40,735 nt of DNA from Clostridiales bacterium (GTDB lineage Bacteria; Bacillota; Clostridia; Lachnospirales; Lachnospiraceae), in the NCBI GenBank assembly GCA_012837605.1, contig DUQV01000139.1, forward strand, positions 1 through 40,735, read 5' to 3'. Position numbers and translations under genes: made by a program. The notes below the pieces were generated by a model, which did no database searches, was not told where the DNA came from, and worked only from the letters and a program-made list of their open reading frames with translations. This document shows positions 22,959 through 38,577 of this stretch, in pieces. Position 1 is the stretch's first letter, and each line of letters begins with the position of its first letter.

Positions 22959-22997
22959 TGTAATAATATAGATAATATTTTTGTTGTGGAGATCTGT

Positions 22998-23193
22998 GGA
23001 GGTCAAAACCTGCGTTGAATGTTGTGTAACTTGAATTTTGCTCTGGAGGTCAAAACCTCCGTTGAATGTTATGTAACCTTGAATTTTGCTCTGGAGGTCA
23101 AAACCTCCGTTGAATGTTGTGTAACCTTATATTTTGCTGTGGAGGTTAAAACCTCCGTTGAATGTTGTGTAACCTTATATTTTGCTGTGGAGG
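22998..23193 (+). repeat. tandem Shine-Dalgarno hairpin repeats ahead of ispF (period 48)
   Basis: GGAGG occurs at 22998, 23045, 23093, 23141 and 23189, a period of 47 then 48, 48 and 48 bases. Each of the first four copies continues with CCTCC (CCTGC in the first), able to pair with its own GGAGG around a short A-rich loop. Then comes GTTGAATGTTGTGTAAC and an AT-rich filler. The fifth GGAGG is the real ispF ribosome binding site, seven bases before the ATG. The same core is repeated before degV at 38315-38460 on the other strand. It is not a CRISPR, because the copies are directly tandem with no spacers. With the hairpin at 22918 it explains the stretch of about 310 bases before ispF. Confidence 0.9.
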
Positions 23194-23200
23194 TTTAAAA

Positions 23201-23752
23201 ATGAGAATTGGAACAGGCTATGATGTTCATAGGCTTGTAGAGAATAGAGAATTAATTATCGGGGGAGTAGCGATTCCGTATGAGAAGGGTCTGATGGGAC
23301 ATTCAGATGCGGATGTGCTTATTCATGCTATAATGGATGCCCTATTGGGGGCAGCAGCTTTAGGAGATATCGGGAGACATTTTCCTGATACGGATGAAGC
23401 TTATAAAGGAGCATCCGGCTTAGAGCTATTAAAAAAAGTTAAAGAGCTTTTAGATGATAAGCTGTATCTTATAGAAAATATCGATGCTACAATTATTGCC
23501 CAGAAACCTAAGCTTTCAGGATATATTCCTGAGATGGTGAGAAATATAGCGACAGTTCTTGAGCTTACAGATAATCAGGTTAATATCAAGGCAACAACTG
23601 AGGAAGGACTGGGATTTACAGGTGAAGGGTTGGGAATAGCAGCCCATGCCGTATGTCTCATTGAATCCATGATGAATTATCAAGTGGATGTTACTCCGGC
23701 ATATAATGAAAAGGGCTGTAACGGCTGCGGAGGATGTCCAAAGAGACGGTAA
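23201..23752 (+). CDS. ispF: 2-C-methyl-D-erythritol 2,4-cyclodiphosphate synthase with a Cys-rich tail
   Basis: IspF makes the cyclic diphosphate intermediate of the non-mevalonate isoprenoid pathway. The first 155 or so residues are canonical: zinc ligands D8, H10 (GYDVH) and H42 ([13 protein letters not shown]), [11 protein letters not shown], and [15 protein letters not shown]. The protein then continues beyond the usual end with about 27 residues finishing [11 protein letters not shown], placing C173, C176 and C179 in a CxxCxxC pattern. An in-frame ATG at 23162 would add 13 residues encoded by the repeat, but GGAGG at 23189 fits the ATG at 23201. No other pathway gene is adjacent; a cysteine-controlled operon follows. 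The core call is firm; the tail's function is unknown. Confidence 0.95.
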
Positions 23753-23809: not shown

Positions 23810-24085
23810 AGCTTACAAATATATCTGAGTTAATGATAAAAGCGATGAACGGAAAAGTAACTCATGGGATTGTATCAGAGATGGGGTGTCACCGGCTGAA
23901 AGCACTCCTTACAGGAACTTGAGCGAAGTGCATCCGGGAGCTGATTCGGTGAGGGTTAACTTAGCCGAATCCGGTAACAGCCGTTATATGTATAAAGATG
24001 TGTGTCAAGTATGTATATGATATTGACATACAAGTAGAGTGGAACCGCGACTTATACCGCCTCTATATTAGAGGCGGATTTTTTA
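23810..24085 (+). promoter_or_regulatory. T-box riboswitch, cysteine (UGC specifier)
   Basis: The leader carries the invariant T-box sequence TGGAACCGCG at 24040-24049, which pairs with the uncharged tRNA acceptor end. Stem I begins with a GATGAACGG-type kink-turn near 23845 and has an apical CCGGCTGAAAG element near 23892. On the 3' side of stem I, GAAG-TGC-ATCC places TGC (23929-23931) as the likely specifier codon, which reads cysteine. This agrees with the genes downstream, a serine acetyltransferase and cysteinyl-tRNA synthetase. When tRNA-Cys is charged, the terminator at 24057-24084 should form. The bases from the terminator to the cysE start (24086-24212) show nothing else of note. 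Confidence 0.92.
24057..24084 (+). terminator. T-box intrinsic terminator
   Basis: A perfect 7-bp GC-rich stem (CCGCCTC with GAGGCGG) around a 7-base loop is followed by a run of six T. It is mutually exclusive with pairing of the T-box sequence in the antiterminator. Confidence 0.9.
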
Positions 24086-24212: not shown

Positions 24213-24962
24213 ATGGGACTTATTAAATATATTAAAGAAGAAATGAGAATTATAAAGGAAAGAGATCCTGCCATTAAGTCTCCGCTTGAGATATTTTTAT
24301 ATCCGAGCTTTAAGGCAATATTAAGATACCGTATAGCTCACAAGCTGTATCTTAAGAAGCACTACTTTCTTGCCAGATGGATATCACAAAGGACTGCACG
24401 AAAGACCGGTATTGAGATACATCCGGGAGCAACTATCGGAAAAGGCTTGTTTATCGATCATGGCATAGGTGTGGTCATAGGAGAAACCACCGTCATAGGA
24501 GATAATGTAACTCTTTATCAGGGCGTTACCCTAGGAGGTACCGGCAAAGAAAAAGGCAAAAGGCATCCGACCATAGGCAATAACGTAATGATAAGTGCCG
24601 GAGCAAAGGTACTGGGCTCCTTCACAATAGGGGAAAATTCAAAAATAGGTGCGGGCTCTGTAGTATTATCAGAGGTACCTGCTAATTCTACCGTAGTAGG
24701 AGTACCCGGACGAATCGTAAAACGTGATAATGTTAAGATACCAAGAGAGGACTTGGATCAGGTTCACCTTCCGGATCCATATCTTAATGATATGAATAAT
24801 CTCAAGAAGGAAAATGAATATCTGAAGAATGAGATAAAGAAGCTGTGCAGCAGGTTTGATGATATAAAGAGTACATGCAAAAAACTGGAGGAGTTGGACA
24901 GAATACTTGATGAGTTAAAGAAACAGGATAATGATAAAAAGGCCAAACAAGTTAAAGAATAA
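24213..24962 (+). CDS. cysE: serine O-acetyltransferase
   Basis: CysE acetylates serine with acetyl-CoA, the first step of cysteine synthesis. The N-terminal helices (to about 65) are followed by a left-handed beta-helix of hexapeptide repeats (about 68-172: [36 protein letters not shown] and on). That region holds the catalytic histidine in [12 protein letters not shown] and the CoA-binding [15 protein letters not shown]. It is the short bacterial type, but with about 60 extra residues at the C-terminus (from about 190) that form a charged coiled coil ([17 protein letters not shown] and on). This tail replaces the short peptide that docks into CysK in other species. GGGGAGG precedes the ATG by seven bases. 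It is first in the T-box operon with cysS. Confidence 0.94.
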
Positions 24963-36080: not shown

Positions 36081-37325
36081 ATGTACTCATTTGATGATGT
36101 TAAGGCATTTGACCCGGAGATAGCTGATGCGATAACCTTAGAAATTGGGCGGCAGAATAATCATATTGAACTTATTGCTTCAGAGAATTTTGTAAGTAAA
36201 GCGGTTATGGCAGCCATGGGAAGCCATTTAACTAATAAGTACGCTGAAGGATATCCTGGAAAGAGATATTACGGCGGATGTGAATTTGTTGATATTGCTG
36301 AGAATCTGGCTATAGACCGGGCTAAGAAGCTGTTTGGCTGTACTTATGCCAATGTTCAGCCTCATTCAGGAGCACAGGCTAATATGGCAGTATTTTTTGC
36401 CTTGCTTAAGCCGGGAGATACGGTAATGGGAATGAATCTTAACCATGGGGGACATCTGACACATGGAAGCCCTGTAAATATGAGCGGCAGTTATTTTAAG
36501 ATTGTTCCTTACGGGGTAAATGACAACGGCTATATAGATTATGATGAGGTCAGAAGTATTGCTCTTGAGAATAAGCCCAGATTAATTATTGCAGGTGCAA
36601 GTGCTTATGCAAGACGGATAGATTTTAAGAGGTTTAGAGAGATAGCTGATGAGGTAGGAGCATTTCTTATGGTAGATATGGCTCATATAGCAGGACTTGT
36701 TGCGGCAGGATACCATGAAAGCCCTATACCTTATGCTCATGTCACCACTACTACAACACACAAGACCCTGCGGGGACCACGCGGAGGAATGATTCTGTCC
36801 GATAAAGAATTCGCAGATAAGTATAAATTGAACAAATCAGTTTTCCCGGGAATCCAAGGAGGACCATTAATGCATGTTATTGCCGCCAAGGCGGTTTGCT
36901 TTAAGGAAGCTTTGGAGCCTGACTTTAAGGATTATGCAAGAAGAATAATTGAAAATGCACAGGCTCTTGCGAATGGATTAATGAAGAGAGGCTTTAATTT
37001 GGTATCAGGAGGTACCGATAACCATCTGATGCTGGTTGACCTTCAGAACATGGGTGTAACCGGTAAGGATGCTGAGAAGCTTCTGGAGAAAGCGAATATC
37101 ACATGTAATAAGAATACGGTTCCAAATGATCCGGCATCACCATTCGTAACCAGCGGAATTCGCCTTGGAACAGCAGCAGTGACCACCAGAGGTCTGAATG
37201 TTGAGGATATGGATGTGATAGCTGAAGCAATTTATCTTCTGATCAAGGATGCTAAGGCTAACAGGGAATTGGCTATGAAGATGGTAAAGGAGCTTACTGA
37301 CAAGTATCCGTTATATTCTATATAA
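36081..37325 (+). CDS. glyA: serine hydroxymethyltransferase
   Basis: GlyA interconverts serine and glycine and feeds one-carbon units to tetrahydrofolate. The 414-residue length is typical. Conserved parts are [39 protein letters not shown], and the pyridoxal-phosphate lysine K228 in [24 protein letters not shown] and the substrate-binding [14 protein letters not shown] are also intact. A TTG at 36072 lies one base after AAAGGA; the ATG at 36081 with ten-base spacing is preferred. It is monocistronic between two terminators. Confidence 0.97.
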
Positions 37326-37361
37326 ATAATAAGAACTGTTTCAAATAATAAGAACTGCTTC
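37324..37361 (+). repeat. 19-bp tandem duplication at the glyA stop and terminator arm
   Basis: AAATAATAAGAACTGTTTC (37324-37342) is repeated at once with one change (37343-37361). The second copy is the left arm of the glyA terminator; the first copy overlaps the stop codon and could compete for the same right arm. Confidence 0.8.
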
Positions 37362-37403
37362 ACAGCGTAGGTTTGGGCTATGCTGTAGAGCAGTTCCTTT
37401 TTT
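37351..37403. terminator. bidirectional terminator between glyA and degV
   Basis: A long imperfect stem (AGAACTGCT...ACAGC with GCTGT...AGCAGTTCCT) is followed by six T on the plus strand. AT-rich sequence follows on the minus strand after degV, so it can serve both convergent genes. Confidence 0.8.
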
Positions 37404-37417
37404 ATTATAACATGTCA

Positions 37418-38308
37418 TTAATTTATATATTCGTATTTTTTTATAAAGCTTATTCCTATAGCACCGGGACCGGTATATGTGCCTATTGTTACACCTATCC
37501 GGAATATTGGGAGAGTAAGCTTTCTGTTAAAATATGTCTCAAGCTTCTCCTTAAGATAATGTGCATCATCTGAAGTAGTGGCATCTACAACGCAAAAATC
37601 ATATTCGGATGGATTTTCACCTGTTTCATGAAAATATTCCACTACCATTTCAAAGACCTTATCAAGTGCTTTTTTCCTGCCGCGAATATTAGAATATGGA
37701 ATCAGTTCGGCATCCTTAAGCTGAATAAGAGGCTTCAGATCAAGCAAATCTTTTGCAAGAGAAATAACCTTGCCGATTCTTCTGCCCTTAGCAAGGTACT
37801 CTAATGTATTTAATGTAAACATAATCCTTGCAGTGGTTTTCAATGTTTCTGCTTTTTGAGTCGCTTCCTCCAAGGATAATCCTGCTTCCTTCATAGCCGC
37901 TGTCTGCAAAAGCAGTATTCCCTGCCCGCCGGTAGCCTGTGTGCTGTCTATAACAGATATAACGGAATGAGGATACTGCTCCTCTAATATTTGTTTAGCG
38001 TTTATTGCCGATTGATAAGAGCCGCTGAGCTTCTGCGAAAGGCATATGCATAGAATGTCGCAGCCTTCTTTAAGAACCGGCTTAAACATTGAGATATAGT
38101 CGTTTACAGAAGGCAGGGATGTCTTAGCATAGATGTCCTTCGATTCCAGCGTTTCATAAAATGCCTCCTTGGTTATATCAATATTTTCTTTATAATAATT
38201 CACCTGATCAAAGCTTACATAAAAGGGTATAAGCCCAATTTGATGCTTCTTAAGCAGATTATCAGGCAAATCGCACGAGGAATCGCTAAATATTTGATAA
38301 GGCCGCAT
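37418..38308 (-). CDS. DegV family fatty-acid-binding protein
   Basis: DegV proteins bind a fatty acid; members called FakB present it to the kinase FakA for phosphorylation and phospholipid synthesis. The 296-residue length is typical. Marks are the start IFSDSSCDLP, the loop AKTSLPSVNDYISMF, the LSQKLSGSYQSA segment, IDSTQATGGQG, and a C-terminal IGTYTGPGAIGISF. AGGAGG lies six bases before the ATG at 38308, and this ribosome binding site is the last unit of a 49-bp tandem repeat array. No fakA-like gene is in the window, so the FakB role is inferred from the family. Confidence 0.93.
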   Translation of the reverse strand: MRPYQIFSDSSCDLPDNLLKKHQIGLIPFYVSFDQVNYYKENIDITKEAFYETLESKDIYAKTSLPSVNDYISMFKPVLKEGCDILCICLSQKLSGSYQSAINAKQILEEQYPHSVISVIDSTQATGGQGILLLQTAAMKEAGLSLEEATQKAETLKTTARIMFTLNTLEYLAKGRRIGKVISLAKDLLDLKPLIQLKDAELIPYSNIRGRKKALDKVFEMVVEYFHETGENPSEYDFCVVDATTSDDAHYLKEKLETYFNRKLTLPIFRIGVTIGTYTGPGAIGISFIKKYEYIN

Positions 38309-38314
38309 GGCAAT

Positions 38315-38460
38315 CCTCCTAAATCAATTTATATTATTTCACAACATATAACGGAGGATTTATCCTCCTCAATAAATTTGTATTATTTCACTACATACAC
38401 CGGAGGATTTATCCTTCCTCAGTAAATAATAATATTTCACCGCATACAACGGAGGGTTTG
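38315..38460 (-). repeat. tandem Shine-Dalgarno hairpin repeats ahead of degV (period 49)
   Basis: On the coding (minus) strand the degV ribosome binding site GGAGG (38319-38315) is preceded by further copies of its own region at a 49-base period (38368-38364, then a GGAAGG variant at 38418-38413). Each is followed by CCTCC (38357-38353, 38406-38402, 38455-38451). The closest copy has GGAGGA-TAAA-TCCTCC, a perfect 6-bp hairpin, then GTTATATGTTGTG. The two farther copies carry GGTGTATGTAGTG and GTTGTATGCGGTG at the same place. The same layout precedes ispF at 22998-23193. Beyond the array, 38461-38577 is AT-rich with nothing else I can name. Confidence 0.85.
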
Positions 38461-38577
38461 TTCTCACTTACATAACCTTATATCGTGGTTTTCATTACTA
38501 CATCTATTGTAAACTATTGTTTGTTAATATTCAATAAAAACTATGAAAATATTCTACATAGTTTTCTTAATAAATAT

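Follow-up and report, generated by a model that had tools for sequence, protein, structure and literature searches.

Ahead of two genes of the window, by which we mean the whole 40,735-nucleotide stretch of DNA analysed here, a Shine–Dalgarno sequence (SD) and its complement (anti-SD) alternate in tandem, and the last SD of each row is the ribosome-binding site of the gene. Our reading, to which we give a probability of about 60%, is that such leaders are cis-acting bistable RNAs in which n anti-SDs and n + 1 SDs control access to the ribosome-binding site. How would such a row work? An anti-SD paired with the SD just upstream would form a small hairpin and leave the next SD open; paired with the SD just downstream, it would close the true site. 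With n anti-SDs set against n + 1 SDs, one SD would remain free, its position in the row would decide whether the gene is translated, and tandem duplication, by altering n, would tune the setting. We infer exchange between the two folds in the cell, an effect on translation and a trigger; candidates for the trigger are free 30S subunits, co-transcriptional folding, and the binding of a protein or RNA to the GTTRTA core that follows the anti-SD.

The degV and ispF leaders

The degV array (38309..38460, minus strand) consists of three SD/anti-SD units, each about 49 nt long. A tandem repeat of this period on this strand had been proposed in an earlier note on this DNA, and Tandem Repeats Finder recovers it (period 49, 3.0 copies, score 194), with CCTCC copies spaced 49 nt apart at 38455-38451, 38406-38402 and 38357-38353. 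The gene (37418..38308, minus strand) encodes a DegV family protein of 296 aa (Pfam PF02645, E 1.4e-69); its ATG is at 38308, and the final GGAGG of the array, at 38319-38315, is its ribosome-binding site. In full, the true site GGAGGATT (38312..38319, minus strand; alignment row L003) has 8-nt complementarity to the upstream AATCCTCC. The last unit (38311..38368, minus strand) runs from SD GGAGGA through a TAAA loop, anti-SD TCCTCC, core GTTATATGTTGTG and linker to the true SD, and is the top match in the genus to our model R1 (74.5 bits), being also one of the 96 training rows of that model. Its anti-SD, AAATCCTCC (38353..38361, minus strand), has two predicted partners, 38368-38363 upstream or 38319-38312 downstream. 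The middle unit (38402..38418, minus strand) combines an SD of the form GGAAGG with CCTCC, and the outermost (38451..38467, minus strand), for which ortholog leaders were compared, has a degenerate SD, GTGAGA, together with CCTCC.

The ispF array (22994..23197, plus strand) has four 48-nt units, with anti-SDs at 23009 (mutated to CCTGC), 23056, 23104 and 23152, and Tandem Repeats Finder assigns 22994-23194 a period of 48, 4.2 copies and a score of 332. The true site is GGAGGTTT (23189-23196, plus strand). We take the start of ispF to be 23201, which is the best placed relative to its GGAGG, rather than the ATG at 23162 given by the mechanical ORF list; the gene (23201..23752, plus strand) encodes a YgbB family MECDP synthase (Pfam PF02542) that is matched in 33 of 34 genomes of the genus. 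The order of a unit is SD copy GGAGGx, A-rich loop, anti-SD x'CCTCC (AAAxCCTCC), core GTTRTAWGTNNYG (GTTRTA-type), A/T-rich linker and next SD. Written as GGAGG-N6-CCTCCGTTATATGTTGTG, the nearest degV unit shares 16 of 18 positions with that of ispF, exactly as the earlier note had it. With up to three mismatches, CCTCCGTTNNATGTTGTG occurs seven times in the window, always within these two arrays (0.13 expected; at most one in 100 shuffles). Both leaders fold better than shuffled sequence by a modest excess (degV, z -2.60, with 2 of 200 shuffles as good; ispF, z -2.01, with 6 of 200).

Other elements lie nearby. A T-box leader (Rfam RF00230, 117.9 bits; 23836-24067, plus strand) precedes a hexapeptide transferase gene at 24213, perhaps as part of a cysteine operon, and a 19-bp tandem repeat, AAATAATAAGAACTGCTTC (37324-37362, 2.1 copies), stands just after the serine hydroxymethyltransferase gene. 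Another dispersed repeat, whose ends are inverted in the manner of CACGAATAAGCAGATTAGTCCATGG...CCATGGACTAATCWGCTTATTCGTGG, occurs in the degV leaders of three related genomes (L311 in G226, L314 in G215, L318 in G207) and in locus L127, where it lies directly 3' of a truncated SD/anti-SD unit.

Units stand before start codons

The window's own genome (G000; 2.11 Mb in 183 contigs, 85% complete) has 25 matches to GGAGGN{3,12}CCTCCGTT and two to the reversed pattern. Two of the 25 (L015 and L024) are chance matches, because they lie inside open frames of 251 and 543 codons and have no GGAGG downstream. Matches precede ispF and degV and, among others, genes that we take to be hisS, serC, rpsR, araA, tyrA-like and xerD-like, and, presumably, genes for a response regulator, a glycosyltransferase and an MFS transporter; apart from seven window proteins run against Pfam, gene names are our reading of N-terminal sequences. 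Downstream genes have no common theme, so no regulatory signal is evident among them.

The earlier note had asked whether the motif is enriched before start codons, and it is: 95 of 109 GTTRTA array ends (a set that excludes rows with N or with insufficient sequence) have a GGAGG and an ORF of at least 40 aa. Among the 14 misses, two (L015 and L138) are chance matches within long open frames; six are arrays that continue with a variant core (L013, L147, L163, L169, L195 and L202); three have a site and a start, with the ORF cut short or the site reading GGGGG (L151, L174 and L159); and three are without a clear start (L127, L204 and perhaps L194). From G207, 40 stretches were fetched, which are not all of its matches, and in seven G207 loci (L124, L128, L131, L140, L144, L156 and L161) runs of N begin within or just after the array, such that assembled copy numbers may be too low.

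Could the units encode a repeated peptide? Their spacing in the GTTRTA dataset varies from 45 to 52 nt, and of 52 spacings 19 are divisible by three, so a reading frame is not kept; given this variable spacing and an ATG that is unconserved in the core, we reject a leader peptide or small ORF. The preference expressed earlier for RNA or DNA structure over a repeated peptide gains from this spacing and also from compensatory changes between the anti-SD and the true SD.

Complementarity to two neighbours

In 88 of 95 GTTRTA loci the base adjoining CCTCC is complementary to the true site, and in 83 of 95 to the upstream SD; the shuffled expectation, obtained on an earlier parse of 100 loci, is 46-47%. 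In 29 arrays that do not have the GTTRTA core, the adjoining base complements the downstream SD in 28 and the upstream SD in 17, with 11 arrays complementary downstream only and none upstream only. At hisS, T-, A- and G-type triples occur across different species. Part of the dataset was picked by a pattern that fixes AAA, and the AAA before CCTCC is therefore ascertained; the covarying base and the TT described below are free of this effect.

Across 96 aligned units, 90.2% of the cells of the helix between the anti-SD and the true SD are paired, and the covariation score is 0.118 versus 0.028 in shuffled data (0 of 500 shuffles reach it), with five of the nine pairs invariant and the outermost pair failing in 59 of 83 cells. 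Two-sided changes occur in 46 cells, at three of the nine pairs, two of which would be loop positions of the upstream hairpin; for the number of pairs with changes on both sides, 49 of 500 shuffles reach the observed value. The 96-unit alignment, like the 98-unit set used for energies, was drawn from the earlier 100-locus parse, and some rows in all three have the SD misplaced at GAGGAGG sites, an error corrected in the 95-locus counts. At the level of sequence, we have shown the layout, its place before start codons, and a complementarity of the anti-SD to two neighbours that is accompanied by covariation.

The ribosome-binding site itself seems fitted to its blocker. Of 95 element loci, 78 have TT directly after the true site, compared with 12 of 184 genes of the same DNA that lack the element (Fisher p 7e-39, a value that ignores relatedness and counts orthologs separately). 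TT follows the site in 28 of 226 genes in tiles of G201, a genome with no R1 match, and in 3 of the 15 distinct orthologous genes found in those tiles; the ribosome-binding site therefore seems to have changed when a unit was gained. In arrays of the non-GTTRTA type, TT is found in just 16 of 29. Template switching between inverted repeats could be another, mutational route to matching arms. Conservation of the core GTTRTAWGT extends past the paired bases, and neither fold accounts for this core: perfect pairing of the GTTRTA core with the linker occurs at 16.7%, against 17.6% in shuffled sequence.

The two folds are predicted to be close in energy. With pairing enforced in 98 units, the mean is -11.4 kcal/mol for the upstream fold and -12.5 kcal/mol for the downstream fold; 18 units prefer the upstream fold by more than 1 kcal/mol, 31 lie within 1 kcal/mol, and 49 prefer the downstream fold by more than 1 kcal/mol. 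Pair counts and predicted energies agree with a putative alternative fold that would sequester the SD. At equilibrium, the anti-SDs in both window leaders are predicted to share partners and the true site to be mostly paired (unpaired 0.06 at 37 °C in both); output would then be low, barring an effect of kinetics or of ribosomes. RNA thermometers, too, rely on an anti-SD that closes an SD. The arrays differ in showing little predicted opening between 37 and 60 °C: partition functions at 37, 45, 55 and 60 °C give next to none for degV (0.06 to 0.07) and a weak one for ispF (0.06 to 0.19), and on these predictions we reject a thermometer.

Spread across the genus and family

Judging from the genomes compared, SD/anti-SD arrays are lineage-specific in both presence and copy number. 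Among 34 genomes of the genus, for which the name Herbinix (Lachnospiraceae) is inferred, 21 have at least one R1 match. Four related genomes show a large expansion (G215, 118 matches; G207, 90; G226, 77; G213, 61); G000 has 26, G225 8, G216 7, G210 6, and G209 and G232 5 each, and the remainder have 0-2. A three-protein tree, in which several nodes are weakly supported and several taxa are represented by only one or two proteins, places the GTTRTA-rich genomes in one subclade. Orthologs of ispF have four units in G000, two in G215, one each in G207 and G213, and none in G216, G201 and G214.

A search of 84,980 genomes with the exact pattern returned 88 stretches, of which all except four come from MAGs matching genomes of this genus. 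We treat the four (L165, L196, L209 and L225) as chance because no GGAGG lies within 60 nt downstream and they sit in open frames, three of more than 400 codons and, for L225, one of 98 codons. Some of the records (SHOH01: L164, L166, L171 and others) belong to a MAG labelled Anaerolineaceae that corresponds to G207, a genome placed in the window's genus; the label is probably wrong. Within the family, the GTT pattern in 200 genomes has 24 matches in the window's own genome and at most five in any other. A generic pattern in 397 family genomes gives 34 matches versus 0 for the control in the window's own genome and 8 versus 0 in G216, and excesses in G370 (13 versus 2), G405 (6 versus 0) and G376 (6 versus 1), the matches listed for G405 and G376 being G/C-rich and those of G370 unlisted; the remaining genomes look similar to the control by eye, their counts being unsummed. 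A single AT-rich SD/anti-SD/SD unit (L417, G024:C56), which precedes the start of a gene from a different genus of this family, looks real.

In other Herbinix species, weak R1 matches prove to be SD/anti-SD units with a different sequence after CCTCC. The pattern GGAGGN{4,7}CCTCCN{24,42}GGAGG is present in 27 of the 34 genomes and exceeds its mirrored control in 26 of these, with many matches counted on both strands as the hairpin is palindromic; the excess is clear in G204 (35 versus 1) and G202 (15 versus 1), weak in G230 (19 versus 8) and G222 (47 versus 11), and absent in G205 (1 versus 3). At 20 places and 11 further loci inspected, spacings are 23-28 nt or about 40-56 nt, and rows reach six units, as ahead of a gyrB-like gene. 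The unit is tied to a start codon (GGAGG and ORF) in 29 of 30 loci, the exception being L396; these loci are the 11 best model matches, one per other genome, and 19 picked by hand from listed places in only some genomes, with listed places such as G206:C191, G204:C10:38309 and G205:C49 passed over and one extra G207 locus uncounted. The 29 non-GTTRTA arrays have 21 different trinucleotides directly after CCTCC. Going by N-termini, the gene that we take to be carB is preceded by a 26-nt row in G202, by one of 46 nt in G203 and, in G207, by a GTTRTA unit; the presumed pheS has rows with different cores in G204 and G226; and the presumed nusA has at least one unit in seven genomes. The same layout recurs with unrelated cores and periods and with locus-specific linkers, so what recurs is the alternation of SD and anti-SD more than a copied sequence. 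The dispersed element proposed earlier is thereby borne out only in part.

Other explanations

Might the units instead be a mobile or copied DNA element? Such an element would insert after an SD and carry its own SD at the far end; the anti-SD would lock the old SD, translation would be kept, and the insertion would be tolerated with no benefit to the gene. In favour of this rather unlikely account is rpsR, where the empty leaders of G201 and G216 terminate in GGATAAGGAGGT and a spacer, and G000 has the same SD (GGAGGT) followed by a clean 47-nt gain that ends in a new GGAGGT; G218 has one unit here, and G213 and G215 two each. The strong expansion in the four related genomes and a few near-identical linkers at different genes (for example, L148 and L161) also fit insertion. 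Against it, linkers differ equally within and between genomes (17.2 of 30 in both), and unrelated cores and periods stand at some of the same genes in other species, including carB and pheS. Flank repeats, assessed in 103 of 130 arrays, cut both ways: in 13 arrays both flanks carry a strong direct repeat, against none in the control, and a similarity of 14 of 22 positions is attained by 22 arrays, where 5.7 would be expected, yet the mean similarity is only 11.7 of 22 versus 10.1 in the control, and several strong repeats resemble a decayed neighbouring unit. Insertion with a long target duplication, which the ispF locus of G213 had suggested, is rejected on these figures, as is a MITE-like transposon, given also that linkers are unlike across loci and that rpsR repeats only SD letters.

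Like REP/REPIN sequences with their RAYT transposases, the arrays are short dispersed palindromes limited to certain genomes; unlike them, they are strand-specific, tied to ribosome-binding sites and furnished with locus-specific linkers. REP-like dispersal free of strand or ribosome-site links is contradicted by array ends that precede starts. Numbers of Y1 transposase genes show no correlation with copy number: PF01797 is absent from G000 (85% complete), occurs once each in G207, G213 and G215 and six times in G226, and is also present in G200, G201 and G205, genomes with no R1 match. RAYT is an improbable engine. Viral contigs gave no exact match, which speaks against carriage by viruses.

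It is quite improbable that the arrays are a by-product of replication, in which a palindrome near the ribosome-binding site provokes template switching and slippage, and inverted copies of the site and tandem units accumulate with no selection. Units of one locus are nearly identical (27 of 30), copy number varies among orthologs, and the layout exists with different linkers, all as expected of such a process. In the loci read, units nevertheless rarely stand anywhere but before starts, the scarcity of TT among G201 orthologs suggests that the ribosome-binding site was altered upon gain, and gene sharing between species exceeds the assumed chance level. In 16 genome pairs, 35 ortholog pairs carry a unit, and G000 and G213 share six such pairs versus about 0.05 for loci placed at random among 2,500 genes (an assumed gene number). 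These shared genes argue for use of the unit; repeated gain at favoured genes would give an equal count. Similarity between linkers is only a little higher for orthologs than for other gene pairs (0.51 versus 0.44), so common descent of each unit is unproved.

We find it harder still to credit that the units bind a translational repressor or a small RNA, with repetition adding avidity and the hairpin merely presenting the site. Conservation of the core past the paired bases would fit, and a comparable possible role is given to the TAACTGA repeats near starts in Beggiatoaceae (PMC4679880). The variety of trinucleotides in other Herbinix arrays, which have no common core, does not fit. The TAACTGA repeats resemble our arrays as lineage-specific tandem repeats before starts of unrelated genes with a proposed translational role; they are described as direct repeats of heptamers with little SD character, about 10% having an SD, whereas our unit contains both GGAGG and its complement, and a heptamer of that type is rejected (PMC4679880).

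A riboswitch with a conserved ligand-binding aptamer is rejected, as no Rfam family falls on the arrays (nothing in the degV region comes near a gathering score at E up to 5, and only the T-box elsewhere in the window reaches one) and the core differs between clades. Translational riboswitches and leader attenuators use an expression platform of anti-anti-SD, anti-SD and SD. As in that platform, the arrays would have two mutually exclusive folds, with one strand either closing the SD or freeing it; they differ in that the anti-anti-SD is a full copy of the SD and the module is tandem and spread over unrelated genes.

Significance

Sequestration of the SD is well known; what stands out here is an SD multiplied together with its blocker, ahead of many unrelated genes, in one genus, with linkers that differ between species. 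On the sequence evidence, the arrays look like an undescribed kind of RNA switch, and no description of them was found in the accessible portions of the literature searched, a body with few subscription papers and with preprints outside its scope. A broader picture, which we offer tentatively, is of a genus-wide device made only of ribosome-site letters: one unpaired SD could occupy any position in the row, ribosomes bound to upstream SDs would push the register such that the real site closes, the row would read the supply of free ribosomes, copy number changed by slippage would set the response of many housekeeping genes, and the device would have arisen repeatedly with different linkers. Orthologs of ispF with 0, 1, 2 and 4 units and the six-unit gyrB-like array represent a natural series for the effect of n. 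If the switch works as we propose, bacteria would possess a copy-number dial for translation that needs neither protein nor ligand.
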